Source: a virus
Reading direction: 5' to 3' (one strand)
Virus record (IMG/VR): IMGVR_UViG_3300005096_000014
Span: 1 to 42,443 of that record
Length of the DNA stretch: 42,443 nt
The notes beneath the pieces were generated by a model. The model was given only the letters and a program-made list of their open reading frames with translations. It was not told the DNA's origin and ran no database searches. Positions within the stretch are counted from its first letter, which is position 1. Each line of letters begins with the position of its first letter. Of the stretch, positions 4,337-42,239 are shown in pieces. The translations under genes were made by a program, and so were the position numbers.

Positions 4337-4541
4337 GATAACTCCAGCGAAGGGCTGGTGTGCTGTACGCTTTAACCGTGAGGACCGGACGCGATGGATT
4401 GATACATCGACGTTCTCGGCAACTATTGACGAGTGCCGGAATAAGCTCTACACAAAGGACCTGATCAACGAAGCTGCGGGAGAGTTTGCAAAGAAAAACC
4501 CTGCCGTCATGATTCTTGAGGTTACTGTGAGGGCTGTATGA
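4323..4541 (+). CDS. hypothetical 72-residue protein
   Basis: GGGAGAGGATTATACA precedes ATG 4323. The product (MDELKITPAKGWCAVRFNRED) appears alpha/beta, with no cysteine cluster or membrane segment. Its stop overlaps the next start as ATGA. Not recognised. Confidence 0.6.
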   Translation: MDELKITPAKGWCAVRFNREDRTRWIDTSTFSATIDECRNKLYTKDLINEAAGEFAKKNPAVMILEVTVRAV

Positions 4542-4726
4542 CTACATTCAAACATTTACTGCCTTTCCTGTTAGGTCAGTCAATGCCAGGATGGACGCAA
4601 AAAACTACCGTTAAGGAAACTCGCCTCCCCAAAGACATCATAGCGACAGACAAGGCCCGAAGCCTGGCATTAGCTAAAGCCAAGCGAGACAGGAAGGCAG
4701 CTAAGAGGGAGATCGAAGCGAACTAG
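4538..4726 (+). CDS. hypothetical 62-residue basic protein, last of the cluster
   Basis: ATG 4538 overlaps the upstream stop. The N-terminus is hydrophobic (KHLLPFLLGQSMPGW) and the C-terminus is a long Lys/Arg/Ala-rich helix (ALAKAKRDRKAAKREIEAN). No motif is recognised. It is the last clear coding sequence before a structured noncoding stretch. Confidence 0.55.
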   Translation: MTTFKHLLPFLLGQSMPGWTQKTTVKETRLPKDIIATDKARSLALAKAKRDRKAAKREIEAN

Positions 4727-4740
4727 TAAGTGGATGAACA

Positions 4741-4832
4741 CTCAGGGTGGCGGCTAAGTAACAACTCGTCGGAGGATGACGGACACCTCATTAAAAACGG
4801 CTATCGATTTAGCCGCTTGAGTTGCCCCTGAG
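4741..4832 (+). ncRNA. structured RNA element with mutually exclusive pairings
   Basis: This noncoding stretch folds on inspection. P1 pairs CTCAGGG (4741-4747) with CCCTGAG (4826-4832). P2 pairs CAACTC (4762-4767) with GAGTTG (4819-4824). Inside P2, CGTC/GACG (4767-4770/4778-4781) shows GGAGGAT in its loop and CGGCTA (4798-4803) pairs with TAGCCG (4810-4815). The latter can instead be captured by GCGGCTAA (4750-4757) pairing TTAGCCGC (4809-4816), which would make a pseudoknot with P2. CTTTGTTT follows P1. It may be a terminator, a regulatory RNA or a small RNA. I could not match it to a known class. Confidence 0.5.
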
Positions 4833-4864
4833 CTTTGTTTAATCCTGATTTAAAAAATATGTTT

Positions 4865-4890
4865 AAGGAGGTGATGTAACTATGAGATAA
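4865..4890 (+). other. perfect Shine-Dalgarno followed by a Met-Arg minigene
   Basis: AAGGAGGTGAT (4865-4875) is complementary to the 3' end of 16S rRNA over 11 bases, the best ribosome site in the window. It precedes no gene. The only in-frame uses are ATG TAA at 4874-4879 (inside the site) and ATG AGA TAA at 4882-4890, a two-codon minigene. Minigenes of this kind, such as the lambda bar sequences, can tie up peptidyl-tRNA. This may also be a relic of a lost gene start. Confidence 0.4.
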
Positions 4891-4910
4891 GATTAATCCA
4901 AATTGCTAAC

Positions 4911-4944
4911 GCCCCTGGAGCCATTTCAACCCTGTTCCAGGGGC
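4911..4944. terminator. hairpin between convergent operons
   Basis: GCCCCTGGA (4911-4919) pairs perfectly with TCCAGGGGC (4936-4944) across a 16-nt loop. It lies between the rightward small-gene unit and the leftward replication unit, where a bidirectional terminator is expected. The T-run is weak on the + strand (TGTTTAG), so termination may be inefficient or factor-dependent. The remaining noncoding bases 4945-5011 hold nothing I recognise. Confidence 0.5.
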
Positions 4945-5011
4945 TGTTTAGTCTCATATGTCTCATAAATGTCCCATATCAACTACTTGGCTTTTTGGGG
5001 ATGATAACACC

Positions 5012-5197
5012 TTAGCTGCCAGCGTATCTGACAATATTCTCTACCCAAGCCTTAAGTTCTTCATGCCTTTTCTCAAACTGTGCTTTATTTCCATGATAAC
5101 AGCCTGAACGCCCATATTCATTTATGATGAAAAGCAACTGCTTAAAATGAGCTTCTCTCATACCTCTAATATCAACAAAATCAAAAAATATAGCCAC
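5012..5197 (-). CDS. hypothetical 61-residue protein
   Basis: The start is GTG 5197, directly after the TGA of the upstream gene and behind AAAGGAGGATT. The product (MAIFFDFVDIRGMREAHFKQ) is helical with aromatic residues and one Cys. It is the last gene of the leftward replication unit. No family recognised. Confidence 0.55.
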   Translation of the reverse strand: MAIFFDFVDIRGMREAHFKQLLFIINEYGRSGCYHGNKAQFEKRHEELKAWVENIVRYAGS

Positions 5198-5404
5198 TCA
5201 ATCCTCCTTTATCCTGTATTCAAAGTGTTTTAATCCGTACCACGTGGTTTTATTTAGCACTTTCAGCGCTTGTTCCATACTCTTCTTGGTCTTATACGCT
5301 TTCCACTTACGCCACCGGGACCATGAGCTACTTTCGTTCGCCCACATGCCCGGCAGCCCTCGGAACTCAAGGATGTAGTGTTGTTTCATAATAATCCCAT
5401 TCAA
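5198..5404 (-). CDS. hypothetical 68-residue basic protein
   Basis: A TTG start at 5404 overlaps the previous stop as TTGA; an ATG at 5389 (MKQHYILEFRGLPG) is the alternative. The product is rich in Trp, Lys and Arg (SSWSRWRKWKAYKTKKSMEQ), as in small phage proteins that bind DNA, but no fold is certain. Function unknown. Confidence 0.5.
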   Translation of the reverse strand: MNGIIMKQHYILEFRGLPGMWANESSSWSRWRKWKAYKTKKSMEQALKVLNKTTWYGLKHFEYRIKED

Positions 5405-5598
5405 AAATACATTTTATACTCAGAATACTTTTCCTTAAACGCCATTATCCCAACTTCAAGACATTCGGAAACATAATCCCACACTTCATCGGTTTTGTCT
5501 TCGTTGCCATACATGTAATCTGAGTAGTTCAGGGTTTCGTAGTCGAGCCTTTTTTCTACTACCACACTTGCAATCCAGATCATTTCTTCTTTATCCAT
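5401..5598 (-). CDS. hypothetical 65-residue acidic protein
   Basis: The ATG at 5598 follows AAAGGAGACTTAAAA, a good ribosome site. The product (MDKEEMIWIASVVVEKRLDY) is acidic and helical, with many Tyr residues near the end. It sits directly downstream of the replication genes and overlaps the next gene by 4 nt. Not recognised. Confidence 0.55.
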   Translation of the reverse strand: MDKEEMIWIASVVVEKRLDYETLNYSDYMYGNEDKTDEVWDYVSECLEVGIMAFKEKYSEYKMYF

Positions 5599-5611
5599 TT
5601 TTAAGTCTCCT

Positions 5612-6271
5612 TTACCCCTCTGGGTTAACTCCTATTAAGTTCTTAAGCATATCCCTTGCTTGAGCCTTAACCATGTCAGGGCTTGGCTGTTCGCGGTAAA
5701 CTTGCTTCGGCTTAGGCTTTGCTGTTGCAATAAATTCACCTGGTATCCGATGCATCCCCTTTTGTAAATATTCTACAAATTGATCCTCATCTAAAAACTG
5801 AGTATCGGGTATGTATCTAAGCGTTGTTAAATCTGCCTTAAACTTTTTACCTTCTCGACGTGTAGCATGAGCTACAGCATGATCAACTATGACCACTTGT
5901 GGATAGCTATGCAAAGGGAAACAATAAGCGCATGGGTTGCTTACATTTGTCCTTCTGTAATTTTTAAATCTATAAAAGCTCACAAACCCGTGGTTACACC
6001 CTATAGCATCACAACCATATGTTTTTGCCTTATTGCTTTTATCACCACGTCCGGCCACCTCCTTACACGCCACCAGTAGGGCTATAGGTGTGGGGAACTT
6101 GCTCAATAGTGGCGGGGCAGTGTCAACTAGCCCATTAACAGCATCAGACACCACATTAGGGGCGTAGTACTGGATTTTGTCATAGTAAACTTTCTTACTA
6201 AGGTTCTTGACTCCAAAATGTTCTTCGGCCTTCCTGAAGATACTGCAAAACTGGTCTAGTGTAGTTCTCAT
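5612..6271 (-). CDS. putative zinc-binding replication accessory protein (helicase-loader position)
   Basis: This 219-residue protein starts at ATG 6271, overlapping the end of the initiator-like gene by 4 nt. Residues 1-70 are helical (TLDQFCSIFRKAEEHFG, SKFPTPIALLVACKEV). Residues about 86-120 hold CDAIGCNHG and NPCAYCFP, a probable zinc ribbon. The C-terminus is basic. Gene pairs of an initiator and a loader (lambda O/P type) are common in phages, and this gene has the partner position, but I see no P-loop and no diagnostic loader motif. Assignment by context only. Confidence 0.45.
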   Translation of the reverse strand: MRTTLDQFCSIFRKAEEHFGVKNLSKKVYYDKIQYYAPNVVSDAVNGLVDTAPPLLSKFPTPIALLVACKEVAGRGDKSNKAKTYGCDAIGCNHGFVSFYRFKNYRRTNVSNPCAYCFPLHSYPQVVIVDHAVAHATRREGKKFKADLTTLRYIPDTQFLDEDQFVEYLQKGMHRIPGEFIATAKPKPKQVYREQPSPDMVKAQARDMLKNLIGVNPEG

Positions 6272-6993
6272 ACTTGTCCGTATTCCTCCTTAAGTTCTTG
6301 TAGCTCTCTAGCAGATCTTTCCTCATCTGTTTCTTTTTTTACTTTTGGTTCAAATAGCCCAGTATAGCCGTTGTCGGCAGACAGCTTAACAATTCCAGTT
6401 GCCACCTCAACGGAATACTTAGATAAAAACTTCATTTGCTTTTTAGCCACAGTTGGCTTAATGGCTTTGCGATCTTCCTTACGTACTTGTAGCCAGTCTT
6501 TCCACTCTTCTCTAAAAAGTTCAGAGGTTTGGAATTCTATTGGGAATAATTCTATAAATTCAATCTGACCATTCCCCTTTGGGGGTAAGGGGGATTCTTT
6601 ATTCTTATTCTTTATCTTACTCTTTACTCTTACTTCTTTATGGTTGGAAGGTTTCTTGCTAGCAACTTGCAAGTCTTTTGTGTAATTATCCTTTATTTCC
6701 AACATCTTATCAAACTTAAATACCCAGTTTTCTTTAGAAAAGGTTACTGAAAGTTTACCGGAAGTCTGACAAAACTCGAACACTTGTCTGAGTTTTGCTT
6801 GAGAACTTCGTAACTTTCGCCGGAGATAAGCAGGAGAGATGCTAAGGTTCCCGGTGATAGTTGTCCCGTTTTCCTTGCTGATAATTTCTATCAATCCGAA
6901 ATATGCTACATAACCTGAATGGGAGAATTTGTCGAGAAGTGCTTGAATAAAAGGATCTTCCAAGCTATCTGAATAATGTTTAAACCACTTCAA
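6268..6993 (-). CDS. replication initiator-like protein (winged-helix N-terminus)
   Basis: The 241-residue product starts at ATG 6993 behind GGAGGCCTCATTG. Residues 1-75 (MKWFKHYSDSLEDPFIQALL, YVAYFGLIEIISKENG) resemble the N-terminal domain found in many phage replisome organisers and Lin1244/Lin1753-type proteins, in which a winged helix is expected. A Lys-rich linker (residues about 115-140) leads to a helical C-terminal domain (FREEWKDWLQVRK). The product probably binds the phage origin and recruits host helicase. It is the first gene of a leftward unit whose promoter faces the HTH regulator. Confidence 0.6.
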   Translation of the reverse strand: MKWFKHYSDSLEDPFIQALLDKFSHSGYVAYFGLIEIISKENGTTITGNLSISPAYLRRKLRSSQAKLRQVFEFCQTSGKLSVTFSKENWVFKFDKMLEIKDNYTKDLQVASKKPSNHKEVRVKSKIKNKNKESPLPPKGNGQIEFIELFPIEFQTSELFREEWKDWLQVRKEDRKAIKPTVAKKQMKFLSKYSVEVATGIVKLSADNGYTGLFEPKVKKETDEERSARELQELKEEYGQV

Positions 6994-7100
6994 TGAGGCC
7001 TCCTGTCCGAGGGTTAGGTTTTGAGTAGAGGAAGTGGGACAGCACCTCCCCTACTCTCTACCTTGGGATTTGTACCGCTTGGCGCGGCGAAGATATTTTA

Positions 7101-8333: not shown

Positions 8334-8419
8334 GGGGCGGTGCAGGAGCGGTAACTGGTCGGACTGTAAATCCGTAGCACCCGATGGGGTCGGAGGTTCA
8401 AATCCTTCTCGCCCCACCA
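8334..8419 (+). tRNA. tRNA-Tyr (anticodon GTA)
   Basis: The 86-nt sequence folds as a class II tRNA. The acceptor stem pairs GGGGCGG with TCGCCCC (one G-U), followed by A and an encoded CCA. The anticodon loop is CTGTAAA, giving GTA, closed by CGGA/TCCG. A long variable arm (CACCC/GGGGT-like) fits bacterial tRNA-Tyr. The T arm is GGAGG-TTCAAAT-CCTTC. It lies between two coding genes on the same strand, so it is probably cut from the operon transcript. Confidence 0.9.
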
Positions 8420-20058: not shown

Positions 20059-21656
20059 TATCGTAGCGTGCTTGTACCTCTGAGGCCCTGGAGTCCTATA
20101 GGTGGAGGTGTTGGACGTGCTTCTGGGGTTTGTTGTTGACGGGTACGCATAACAGGTGGCTGTGCACCACTTATGGTTTCTTCTGCCCTGCCTGCACGAA
20201 AAGCTGAAGGGGCAACCCCTCCAACTTTGAAAGCCTTTGTTCTGGCTTTGGCTAAGGCCTTGGCGAGAACAATCTGTATCCTCGGATCTGTAATCAACTT
20301 GTCTACAATAATTGCACCTGTTGCAAATTTCACCCCAGCCCCAAGCCCTGCTCCATAGCCACCAATCGCCCCAGCCAAACCACCTGCAACTAGCCCTCGC
20401 ACAGGAATCATAGGTTTCTTTTCAAAAGATATTATTCTGTCTTTTATTGCTTTAGTTAGCTCTATATTTATTCCTTCACTTTTATTTAGTAATTTTAGCT
20501 CTGGATGTAATTCTTCAAGTTTTGATTTAGCTGCATCTCTAAGAGTATTTCTAACCTTTGCCCTAACTTGACCAAACCTGCTTGATAGATCAGGTTTGAA
20601 TCCCTTGTTGAATCCCACTTTTATGTCTTGAATTTCTCTCGGAGTTAGCGTCTCACCGTGAAGGGATTTAAATTGTTGCCGCATTCTTTGAATCACCTTT
20701 ATATCTGGCAACTCTAATCCTTCTTTGGCAGCAGTATCTATAAGCCCATCCAAAGATTTAACAATATCATCAGTTTTTATCATGATTCCATCTTTTGTTT
20801 TTGTGTCGATAATGCTATTAACACTTTTTCTTATTTTTGAACTCTCTCTATCTAATTTAATTAAAGATTTTCGGTTTATATTTAACCCTTTATTTATAAA
20901 AGCCTCTGCAAGCTCATCGACCCGTTGTAATCCTTTTGCTCTTGGCAAATCTAGGGCTGTTTTAGCTAGGCTATTTATTCTCTCTTTTTTGGCAAGCAAC
21001 TTACTTCCACTAACCAGTAATGCCCTTGAAGGTTCAATCGATTTACCAAAAGCCTGCAATTCTTTCCCAAATGCAGTTACCTTAGTTAATTTCGTGGCGA
21101 AACCAGCTCCAGATAAAACAGCCGAAAAGTCAGAAAGAAATCCAATAGGATCATCTCTAAAAGTCTCTTTTATAGCATTTAAACTTCCATACCTATCTTT
21201 AAAGAATGAGCCAACAGACCTTGCCAGTCGCTCTTTCCCTTGTTCCCCTGGAACCATTAGCTGTGCCAGTCCAAGCCCCAAGTCTTTTAGGCTTGTTGCA
21301 GTGTCTATAGGATGCAGTATTGTTTGTGCAACATTTCCTACATATCCACGAAAGCTTTCTGGAACATTTTTTAATGTCTCACCTAAATAACTAAACGCAT
21401 CCCCATCAGGCTGACTGATTACTTCAGGCGTGTCTATACGTTGTTCTGGTAACACAGGAACGTCACCAACGCCTAAAGGCTGTGCATTTGCCCCTTTATC
21501 AACTGGAAAACCAGCTTCAGTTATTTGTGGGTTCACCTCGTTAAAGCTTGTAGGAACTTGGGCTTTAGCCTGTAATTGAGGTGTTGGCTGAGGCCCTTGC
21601 AACTCAAGCTCACGTTCACGAATCTGTATCAGACGTAATCTATCTTGATCATTCAC
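20058..21656 (-). CDS. putative ejection (internal virion) protein, 532 residues
   Basis: ATG 21656 opens MNDQDRLRLIQIRERELELQ. Residues 1-80 are Gln/Pro-rich. The centre is long and helical. Residues about 418-455 are Gly/Ala-rich and hydrophobic (GLVAGGLAGAIGGYGAGLGA), a membrane-insertion-like segment. The C-terminus is Pro/Arg-rich. This composition, and the place after the tail genes and before lysis, match P22 gp16/gp20-type proteins that are ejected ahead of DNA. Sequence similarity is too weak to name the one-to-one counterpart. Confidence 0.6.
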   Translation of the reverse strand: MNDQDRLRLIQIRERELELQGPQPTPQLQAKAQVPTSFNEVNPQITEAGFPVDKGANAQPLGVGDVPVLPEQRIDTPEVISQPDGDAFSYLGETLKNVPESFRGYVGNVAQTILHPIDTATSLKDLGLGLAQLMVPGEQGKERLARSVGSFFKDRYGSLNAIKETFRDDPIGFLSDFSAVLSGAGFATKLTKVTAFGKELQAFGKSIEPSRALLVSGSKLLAKKERINSLAKTALDLPRAKGLQRVDELAEAFINKGLNINRKSLIKLDRESSKIRKSVNSIIDTKTKDGIMIKTDDIVKSLDGLIDTAAKEGLELPDIKVIQRMRQQFKSLHGETLTPREIQDIKVGFNKGFKPDLSSRFGQVRAKVRNTLRDAAKSKLEELHPELKLLNKSEGINIELTKAIKDRIISFEKKPMIPVRGLVAGGLAGAIGGYGAGLGAGVKFATGAIIVDKLITDPRIQIVLAKALAKARTKAFKVGGVAPSAFRAGRAEETISGAQPPVMRTRQQQTPEARPTPPPIGLQGLRGTSTLR

Positions 21657-32149: not shown

Positions 32150-32989
32150 TTAATAAGCTGATTCACTAAATGTATCACTAGAATCAGACCTAAAGTTTTG
32201 TCTGGCTAAATCTGAAATAGCAATCTCAAATAGTTTAAACTGTTTATTTGCTTGGTCATCACCAACCAAATCCAGCATCTTCCAGTAAATCCCTGCATCT
32301 AAAGCAGTTCTCCATTCTGAAAGTAAGGTTGAATATCTTGAATCAGTAAGATCAAGTTGCTGTATTTTAATCGTAAAGTCAATTGAAATAGCATATGTTG
32401 ATTTGTCAGGAATGCGATCTAAATAAAACTCACGATTATAGTATGCAATATGCCATGGATGTCCATTAGTTGATGTTTTCCAAATCTTTGATTTAGACAC
32501 ATATTCTAATTTGTGGTCATGATCAGCAATCATGTATGTTCCACTTGTTGGAGTAACAGTGAAATCAGGACTGATTTCAGCAATATCTCCTAATATACTT
32601 ACAATCCTCACCATTTCAGCTTTAGCATTACCAGATGTTATGAATAATAGCCTCCCAAGATGCGAATCATTTCCATCACCAACAGCCAGGGTAATATTGT
32701 TTGATGTTGCAGCCTGAAGTGTCCCTCTTGTCCCTCCATCATAAAACGTAACATCTTGTATGCTTTCAAAGTTTGTTGGCGCAGTTATCTTTTGCAAATA
32801 AATAGAAGGGATAATAACTTTTGTTGATTCAAGCACATCCCATTCAAGTTTACTTGCAATAGAGTTCTTAACTTCCTCTAACCAGAAATCAGTCGCTCGT
32901 GCTATTAAATCAACTGAAGGATTAGAATCAAACTTATGCAGTCCTTCTAGAACTATACTATTTGCTGTTGGTGCTACTGGTATTGCCAT
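32150..32989 (-). CDS. head-tail adaptor (connector), 279 residues
   Basis: ATG 32989 follows GTGAGGTTTCA. The product contains ANSIVLEGLHKFDSNPSVDL and RATDFWLEEVKNSIASKLEW near its N-terminus, typical of adaptor proteins in phages with an N4-gp56-like capsid. A beta insertion (residues about 75-150, TYMIADHDHKLEYV) follows, then a helical end. It would extend the portal in the position of P22 gp4. Assignment rests on similarity in memory and on gene order. Confidence 0.55.
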   Translation of the reverse strand: MAIPVAPTANSIVLEGLHKFDSNPSVDLIARATDFWLEEVKNSIASKLEWDVLESTKVIIPSIYLQKITAPTNFESIQDVTFYDGGTRGTLQAATSNNITLAVGDGNDSHLGRLLFITSGNAKAEMVRIVSILGDIAEISPDFTVTPTSGTYMIADHDHKLEYVSKSKIWKTSTNGHPWHIAYYNREFYLDRIPDKSTYAISIDFTIKIQQLDLTDSRYSTLLSEWRTALDAGIYWKMLDLVGDDQANKQFKLFEIAISDLARQNFRSDSSDTFSESAY

Positions 32990-33000
32990 TGAAACCTCAC

Positions 33001-33027
33001 AAGGCAGGAGGGACGACCTCCTGCCTT
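33001..33027 (-). terminator. strong hairpin after the capsid genes
   Basis: AAGGCAGGAGG (33001-33011) pairs perfectly with CCTCCTGCCTT (33017-33027) with a 5-nt loop. On the minus strand it follows the stop at 33034 and precedes the adaptor start. No U-run follows, so it probably acts as an attenuator or an mRNA-stabilising 3' end that raises capsid gene output over downstream genes. Confidence 0.5.
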
Positions 33028-33033
33028 ATTAAA

Positions 33034-41437: not shown

Positions 41438-41448
41438 TACCTTATCGT

Positions 41449-41537
41449 TGTCAATCTATTGACATAATGCAAACCAAGTGTCAATAGTCACTGCTTTGAC
41501 GTGTCAACTACTCGCCTGAAGTGTCATGGACTTGACA
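41449..41537. repeat. cluster of TTGACA half-sites (iteron-like)
   Basis: Exact TTGACA/TGTCAA occur at 41449 (-), 41459 (+), 41479 (-), 41502 (-) and 41532 (+), with near copies at 41496 (+, TTGACG) and 41522 (-, ATGACA). ATTGACA/TGTCAAT (41458-41464/41479-41485) and TTGAC-GT-GTCAA (41496-41507) are inverted pairs. Five exact hexamers in 89 bp are far above chance. They may be protein-binding iterons at an origin, or stacked operators. The last copy also fits a promoter (TTGACA-N17-TTACCG). Confidence 0.5.
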
Positions 41538-41548
41538 AAAACACGTGC

Positions 41549-41612
41549 GGTCTGTTACCGTAACGGAGTGAGAGGCTAGCTAGCTCGCCAACACTCAGTG
41601 AGGTAACAGACC
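41549..41612. repeat. nested inverted repeat in the noncoding locus
   Basis: GGTCTGTTACC (41549-41559) and GGTAACAGACC (41602-41612) are perfect 11-bp arms. Inside, GAGTG (41566-41570) pairs with CACTC (41592-41596), and GCTAGCTAGC (41575-41584) is a palindrome. GTTAC-C-GTAAC (41554-41564) shows the arm motif again. The whole could fold as a cruciform or RNA stem-loop. It may be an origin, a packaging signal or a terminator-like element. Bases 41613-41690 show no gene. Confidence 0.55.
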
Positions 41613-41690
41613 TAGAGTGTGAGATTTTGGAGCACACCTCCCGGCAGTATCCGTAGTTAATCCAACAATAACAATGTATATGCACGCAAG

Positions 41691-41706
41691 TGTTCCACGT
41701 GGAACA
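41691..41706. promoter_or_regulatory. parS-like centromere site (TGTTCCACGTGGAACA)
   Basis: A perfect 16-bp palindrome stands at 41691-41706. It keeps the canonical chromosomal parS (TGTTTCACGTGAAACA) except for a symmetric T-to-C/A-to-G pair, and its GTTCCACGTGGAAC core is that of Pseudomonas-type parS as I recall it. Host ParB would be expected to load here. No parB is visible in the window. The site is noncoding, 42 bp from the HTH gene stop. Confidence 0.65.
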
Positions 41707-41747
41707 ATGTGGGGATACGTATGTGTAAGTGTTGGTGCTACAGGCTG

Positions 41748-42239
41748 CTACTGGTCGTCTGCTGGTGAGTCAGGTGTGATATCAATAGCCTCATCAGAAG
41801 CAACAGGGCTAGGCTTGACGGCCTTAATCACCTTGTCAACGAGCTCTACCATGGCAGATATGCTATCGGCTGTATCGTTCCCGGACTTGCCAAGAATTTG
41901 AAGCTCTTTGTCTTGAAGAATGCCTACTGCTGTGACTTTTTGGAGTAGAGAGGCGTTTTTGATATCGTCATCGGTGATAGCGTTAACTATCTTACGCTGT
42001 CCACTTGCAAGGATATCGGCCCTAAGGCCCTTATAGTCATCCACTGCCTCGAAGTCAATCCCAGCTCGCTGTAACCTCCTGGTAACATTTGATTTATCGC
42101 AACCGAGTATTTTACCTATCTGACTATGAGAGAGGCCCTTACGCTTGAGCTTGGCGATGTCCTCAATCGGTATAACGGCATGACTACCTACGTTGCCCTT
42201 GGTGTTGACTGTGACTGTATCCATAGTTATATATATCAT
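41748..42239 (-). CDS. HTH DNA-binding protein, candidate small terminase
   Basis: The 163-residue product starts at ATG 42239 or 42224. Residues about 26-52 (LKRKGLSHSQIGKILGCDKS, NVTRRLQRAGI) form a helix-turn-helix. The central part (ADILASGQRKIVNAITDDDI, LQKVTAVGILQDKELQILGK) matches a family common beside phage terminases, where TerS is the likely role. It lies away from terL, though near it on the circle, and beside the noncoding locus, so it may instead bind the origin or parS-like region. No CTPase motif, so not ParB. Acidic C-terminus. Confidence 0.55.
   Translation of the reverse strand: MIYITMDTVTVNTKGNVGSHAVIPIEDIAKLKRKGLSHSQIGKILGCDKSNVTRRLQRAGIDFEAVDDYKGLRADILASGQRKIVNAITDDDIKNASLLQKVTAVGILQDKELQILGKSGNDTADSISAMVELVDKVIKAVKPSPVASDEAIDITPDSPADDQ

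Follow-up and report, generated by a model that had tools for sequence, protein, structure and literature searches.

Segment 4741-4832 is most likely an ordinary structured mRNA end, and with a probability of about 0.42 we take it to be the structured 3' UTR of a tailed phage's rightward transcript, or a small RNA derived from it. The window, that is, the whole stretch of 42,443 bases that was analysed, is an IMG/VR record that carries portal, head-closure, capsid and large-terminase genes, and the nearest relatives found share just 40-53% identity with it, in the large terminase. Within it, the segment occupies the position of a 3' UTR or 3'-derived RNA, between the final gene of a rightward cluster and a terminator-like hairpin. 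In the arrangement that we propose, a domain closed by helix P1 would come first, then a strong but orphan ribosome-binding site, and finally an intrinsic-terminator-like hairpin. The likeliest role is passive or small-RNA-like, with the fold and the terminator hairpin shielding the 3' end from exonucleases, and processing may yield a stable RNA of about 120-230 nt from this end. We infer transcription through the region, stability of the RNA and any function that it may have.

Structured 3'-UTR elements and 3'-UTR-derived small RNAs are a known general kind in bacteria and phages. Like these, the segment is non-coding and folded, and it sits downstream of the final gene of a presumed transcript, with an intrinsic-terminator-like hairpin behind it; unlike them, it has no sequence or structural homologue in the collections searched. 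A stable RNA produced from this locus would add to the phage 3'-end RNAs to which no role has been assigned.

Position and coding content

The segment sits in 285 nt of non-coding sequence that separate a rightward from a leftward gene cluster (Table 1), and its GC content is 53% as compared to 42% genome-wide. The original prediction had placed it at the 3' end of the cluster of rightward genes, and this was borne out, as a non-coding, over-structured segment does follow the last ORF of the + strand. A 33-codon GTG ORF (4730-4831) was considered as a gene and rejected on its codon score, which is below that of nearly all real gene segments (0.5th percentile); this low score, the excess of folding stability described below, the location with the last + strand ORF on one side and convergent - strand ORFs on the other, and the terminator-like hairpin immediately 3' together favour the 3' UTR reading. 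No promoter-like site was found just upstream of the segment.

Table 1. Features in and around segment 4741-4832. P, probability in the ensemble.
Feature	Position	Strand	Sequence	Remarks
Last rightward ORF	4538-4726	+		5' border of the 285-nt gap
P1, 5' arm	4741-4747	+	CTCAGGG	7 bp with 4826-4832; P about 0.99
P2, 5' arm	4749-4759	+	GGCGGCTAAGT	11 bp including G-U with 4807-4817; P about 0.06
P3 (inner stem), 5' arm	4762-4768	+	CAACTCG	Pairs with 4818-4824; P about 0.001
GGAGGAT hairpin	4767-4781	+	CGTC-GGAGGAT-GACG	Ribosome-site-like loop; 4 bp, 4767-4770/4778-4781; P about 0.06
Anti-SD-like stretch	4784-4795	+	CACCTCATTAAA	11/12 complementary to 4862-4873
P4 hairpin	4798-4815	+	CGGCTA-TCGATT-TAGCCG	6 bp, 4798-4803/4810-4815; P about 0.95
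P2, 3' arm	4807-4817	+	ATTTAGCCGCT	Partner of 4749-4759
P3, 3' arm	4818-4824	+	TGAGTTG	Partner of 4762-4768
P1, 3' arm	4826-4832	+	CCCTGAG	Partner of 4741-4747
SD2	4864-4875	+	TAAGGAGGTGAT	Perfectly complementary over 12 nt to the 3' tail of bacterial 16S rRNA
Two-codon ORF	4882-4890	+	ATG AGA TAA	Behind SD2
Terminator-like hairpin	4911-4944	+	GCCCCTGGA ... TCCAGGGGC, then TGTTTAG	Directly downstream of SD2 and the minigene
Convergent leftward ORFs	5012 to 6993	-		3' border of the 285-nt gap

Helices and folding stability

Every helix proposed originally exists as base complementarity. The 7-bp closing stem, P1, was confirmed as common to all stable conformers. The inner stem P3 is present as 6 bp (4762-4767/4819-4824), or 7 counting one G-U, but is not favoured in the ensemble, and the 8-bp competing pairing exists as the core of the longer helix P2, which is really 11 bp, G-U pairs included. 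Both hairpins are complementary as described, yet only P4 dominates the ensemble whereas the GGAGGAT hairpin is rarely formed. P4 and P2 are mutually exclusive, and since C4767 is needed by each, the inner stem and the GGAGGAT hairpin cannot both form at full length.

The local excess of structure over shuffled sequence is real. The 92-mer of the + strand folds at -34.3 kcal/mol as compared to -23.6 kcal/mol for dinucleotide shuffles (z -3.4), none of 200 shuffles folded as well, and only 11 of 3684 equal-sized pieces of the contig are as stable. Likewise, none of 1000 shuffles reached the stacking score of its two helices that cross inside a third. These counts, and the placement of the segment exactly where a 3' RNA element would be, speak against the view that it is functionless, GC-richer intergenic DNA that merely caught the eye through the many stems one can draw in it. 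Nevertheless, this chance explanation is nearly as likely as the 3' UTR reading. The segment was picked from 42 kb and two strands; among the 120 most stable pieces of the contig for which z was calculated, other unselected places, several of them coding, have z as low as or below -3.4; and a coding-region segment (21529-21620) nearly equals it in the enclosed crossing-helix score. No conservation is detectable and, as described below, shuffles show alternative folds just as often, both of which also fit chance.

The - strand of the segment folds at least as well (z between -4.3 and -4.5), which weighs against the 3' UTR reading and would also fit a repeat acting at the DNA level or a transcript running leftward. 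Inverted repeats that bind a protein, or that form the 3' end of such a transcript, would suit a locus where convergent clusters meet. However, the arms of P2 and P3 are crossing and not nested, an order that a simple inverted duplication does not give, and the - strand has no T run, and we regard such a feature as rather improbable.

Pseudoknot geometry and alternative folds

In the MFE structure, 4750-4758 is paired with the 4815-4824 stretch and P4 is kept. The best fold containing P2 has -32.7 kcal/mol, 1.6 above the MFE, and the best fold containing the inner stem has -29.9 kcal/mol, 4.4 above it. The GGAGGAT motif is mostly paired in the ensemble, its first G excepted, and the idea that it is displayed in a loop was not supported, the hairpin having a probability of about 0.06.

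Formed jointly, P2 (11 bp) and P3 (7 bp) would be sterically strained. A standard H-type form of the pseudoknot originally proposed is unlikely unless P2 frays, because the linkers are 2 and 0 nt while a rough A-form model requires spans of about 33 Å for 11 bp and 25 Å for 8 bp. Even the version with 8 and 6 bp has just 2 nt for about 25 Å, and the segment thus lacks the linkers, long enough for the grooves, of an H-type pseudoknot. A frayed P2 or a side-by-side arrangement of the helices would be conceivable as other geometries.

The original prediction had also seen a switch in the mutually exclusive stems. A comparably different alternative fold within 2 kcal/mol was present in 95 of 200 shuffles and in 52 of 100 coding pieces, and near-equal exclusive folds are therefore not found here beyond chance. 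Since shuffles and coding sequence show them as often, such stems are no evidence for a switch, and this claim was not supported.

SD2, the minigene and the terminator-like hairpin

Downstream of the folded domain, SD2 has a duplex energy of -19.0 kcal/mol with the 16S tail, and none of the 60 start regions of the contig that were compared is as strong. Only ATG TAA or ATG AGA TAA follow, and no longer ORF was found behind it. The anti-SD-like stretch CACCTCATTAAA could pair with SD2 (4862-4873) in a duplex of -13 kcal/mol, a match reached by 10 of 20000 shuffles. This complementarity, together with the perfect 16S match of SD2, is consistent with ribosome-linked control, in which a freed SD2 would admit ribosomes to ATG AGA TAA; but the pairing was found post hoc, three further places of the contig match at 11/12, and SD2 has no gene to regulate, so that we consider such control unlikely. 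In this reading, ribosomes might also merely sit on the RNA end, and the element would act like a translational switch or a minigene of the lambda bar type.

In phage lambda, the bar minigenes consist of AUG AUA UAA behind a strong SD. The locus resembles them in that a two-codon ORF of a phage lies behind a strong SD, whereas AGA is the commonest arginine codon in the present phage, which argues against a rare-codon minigene, the site lies at a transcript end and no toxicity is known. Anti-SD/SD translational switches are known as riboswitch expression platforms; here too an anti-SD-like segment in a folded domain is able to pair with a downstream SD, but there is no gene after the SD for a switch to control and no riboswitch match in Rfam. 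A phage-encoded ribosome-sensing RNA, in which the anti-SD of the folded domain clamps a near-perfect geneless SD and competition by free 30S alters the fold, the terminator or the stability, would be quite a long shot. An orphan, very strong SD with an internal anti-SD pairing would be worth an experiment. A small RNA acting on phage translation starts was tried as another candidate and rejected, as pairing of the loop region averaged -12.7 kcal/mol as compared to -13.8 kcal/mol for shuffles.

The 3' UTR reading places a terminator directly after these elements, and the piece 4877-4968 has the lowest z (-7.2) among the 120 most stable pieces of the contig. On the other hand, the U-tract of the terminator-like hairpin is weak, which counts against this reading.

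Stretch 4745-4793 can be aligned to GGGUGAAGUCGUAACAAGG..GGAUCACCUCCUU of the 16S rRNA 3' end, a likeness that is suggestive by eye but statistically weak and dependent on the tail chosen. The Bacteroidota tail alignment was reached by 2 of 1000 shuffles and the cyanobacterial one by 12 of 1000, whereas the Proteobacterial, Deinococcus and Bacillota tails were reached by 4-9% of shuffles. As the best alignment came from seven tails tried, contains many gaps and has no counterpart in an Rfam 16S match, a decoy of the 16S 3' end appears highly improbable.

Homologue and family searches

No homologue was found in any of the searches, and the 3' UTR reading consequently lacks covariation. Distant-mode blastn against phages, plasmids and E. 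coli genomes gave nothing credible for the region. Viral contigs contained no relatives of the flanking proteins, and three that were tested had none in INPHARED phages. Exact-core and gapped-helix patterns identified no homologue in 2.9 million viral contigs, in scans that are weak for diverged RNA and whose negative outcome is no proof of absence: the exact-core patterns gave one chance match and then 53, none of the 53 with the fold, and the gapped P2 helix pattern gave at least 119. The large-terminase relatives are short fragments that do not contain the region, a search with the small-terminase-like gene led back only to one of them, and a scan of genome contigs returned one short metagenome-bin contig.

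Rfam 15 had no match for 4650-5000 at E up to 5, and at gathering score the only hit in the whole window was the tRNA at 8334. With the RF00177 (16S rRNA) covariance model also giving no match, the segment matches no Rfam family, riboswitches, ribozymes and 16S rRNA included, which fits the original description of a candidate new structured RNA. A literature search found no matching element. The segment is at present an unconserved single-sequence prediction, unable to anchor a new RNA class.

Other features of the contig

Upstream of the large terminase, region 41440-41710 contains a cluster of TTGACA/TGTCAA repeats (41456-41540). It also has a long imperfect palindrome, GGTCTGTTACC..GGTAACAGACC (41549-41612), in surroundings that fold at about -46 kcal/mol whichever strand is taken, and the perfect palindrome TGTTCCACGTGGAACA (41691-41706), which is two bases off the parS consensus of ParB sites. 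The region could serve in replication, packaging or partition. Beside the repeats, on the - strand, a small HTH DNA-binding protein is encoded (41748-42239) with weak ParB-like and sigma-like profile matches; synteny with L005 suggests that it is a small terminase subunit. The phage carries a tRNA-Tyr (GTA) gene (8334-8419). Two further hairpins are on the - strand. A long one, GAGTAGGGGAGGTG/CACTTCCTCTACTC (7001-7092), adjoins the start of the leftward cluster, and one of 13 bp, AAGGCAGGAGG..CCTCCTGCCTT (32965-33030), lies at the ribosome site of a gene whose start is at 32989, where it may hide the start of this gene or terminate the upstream transcript.
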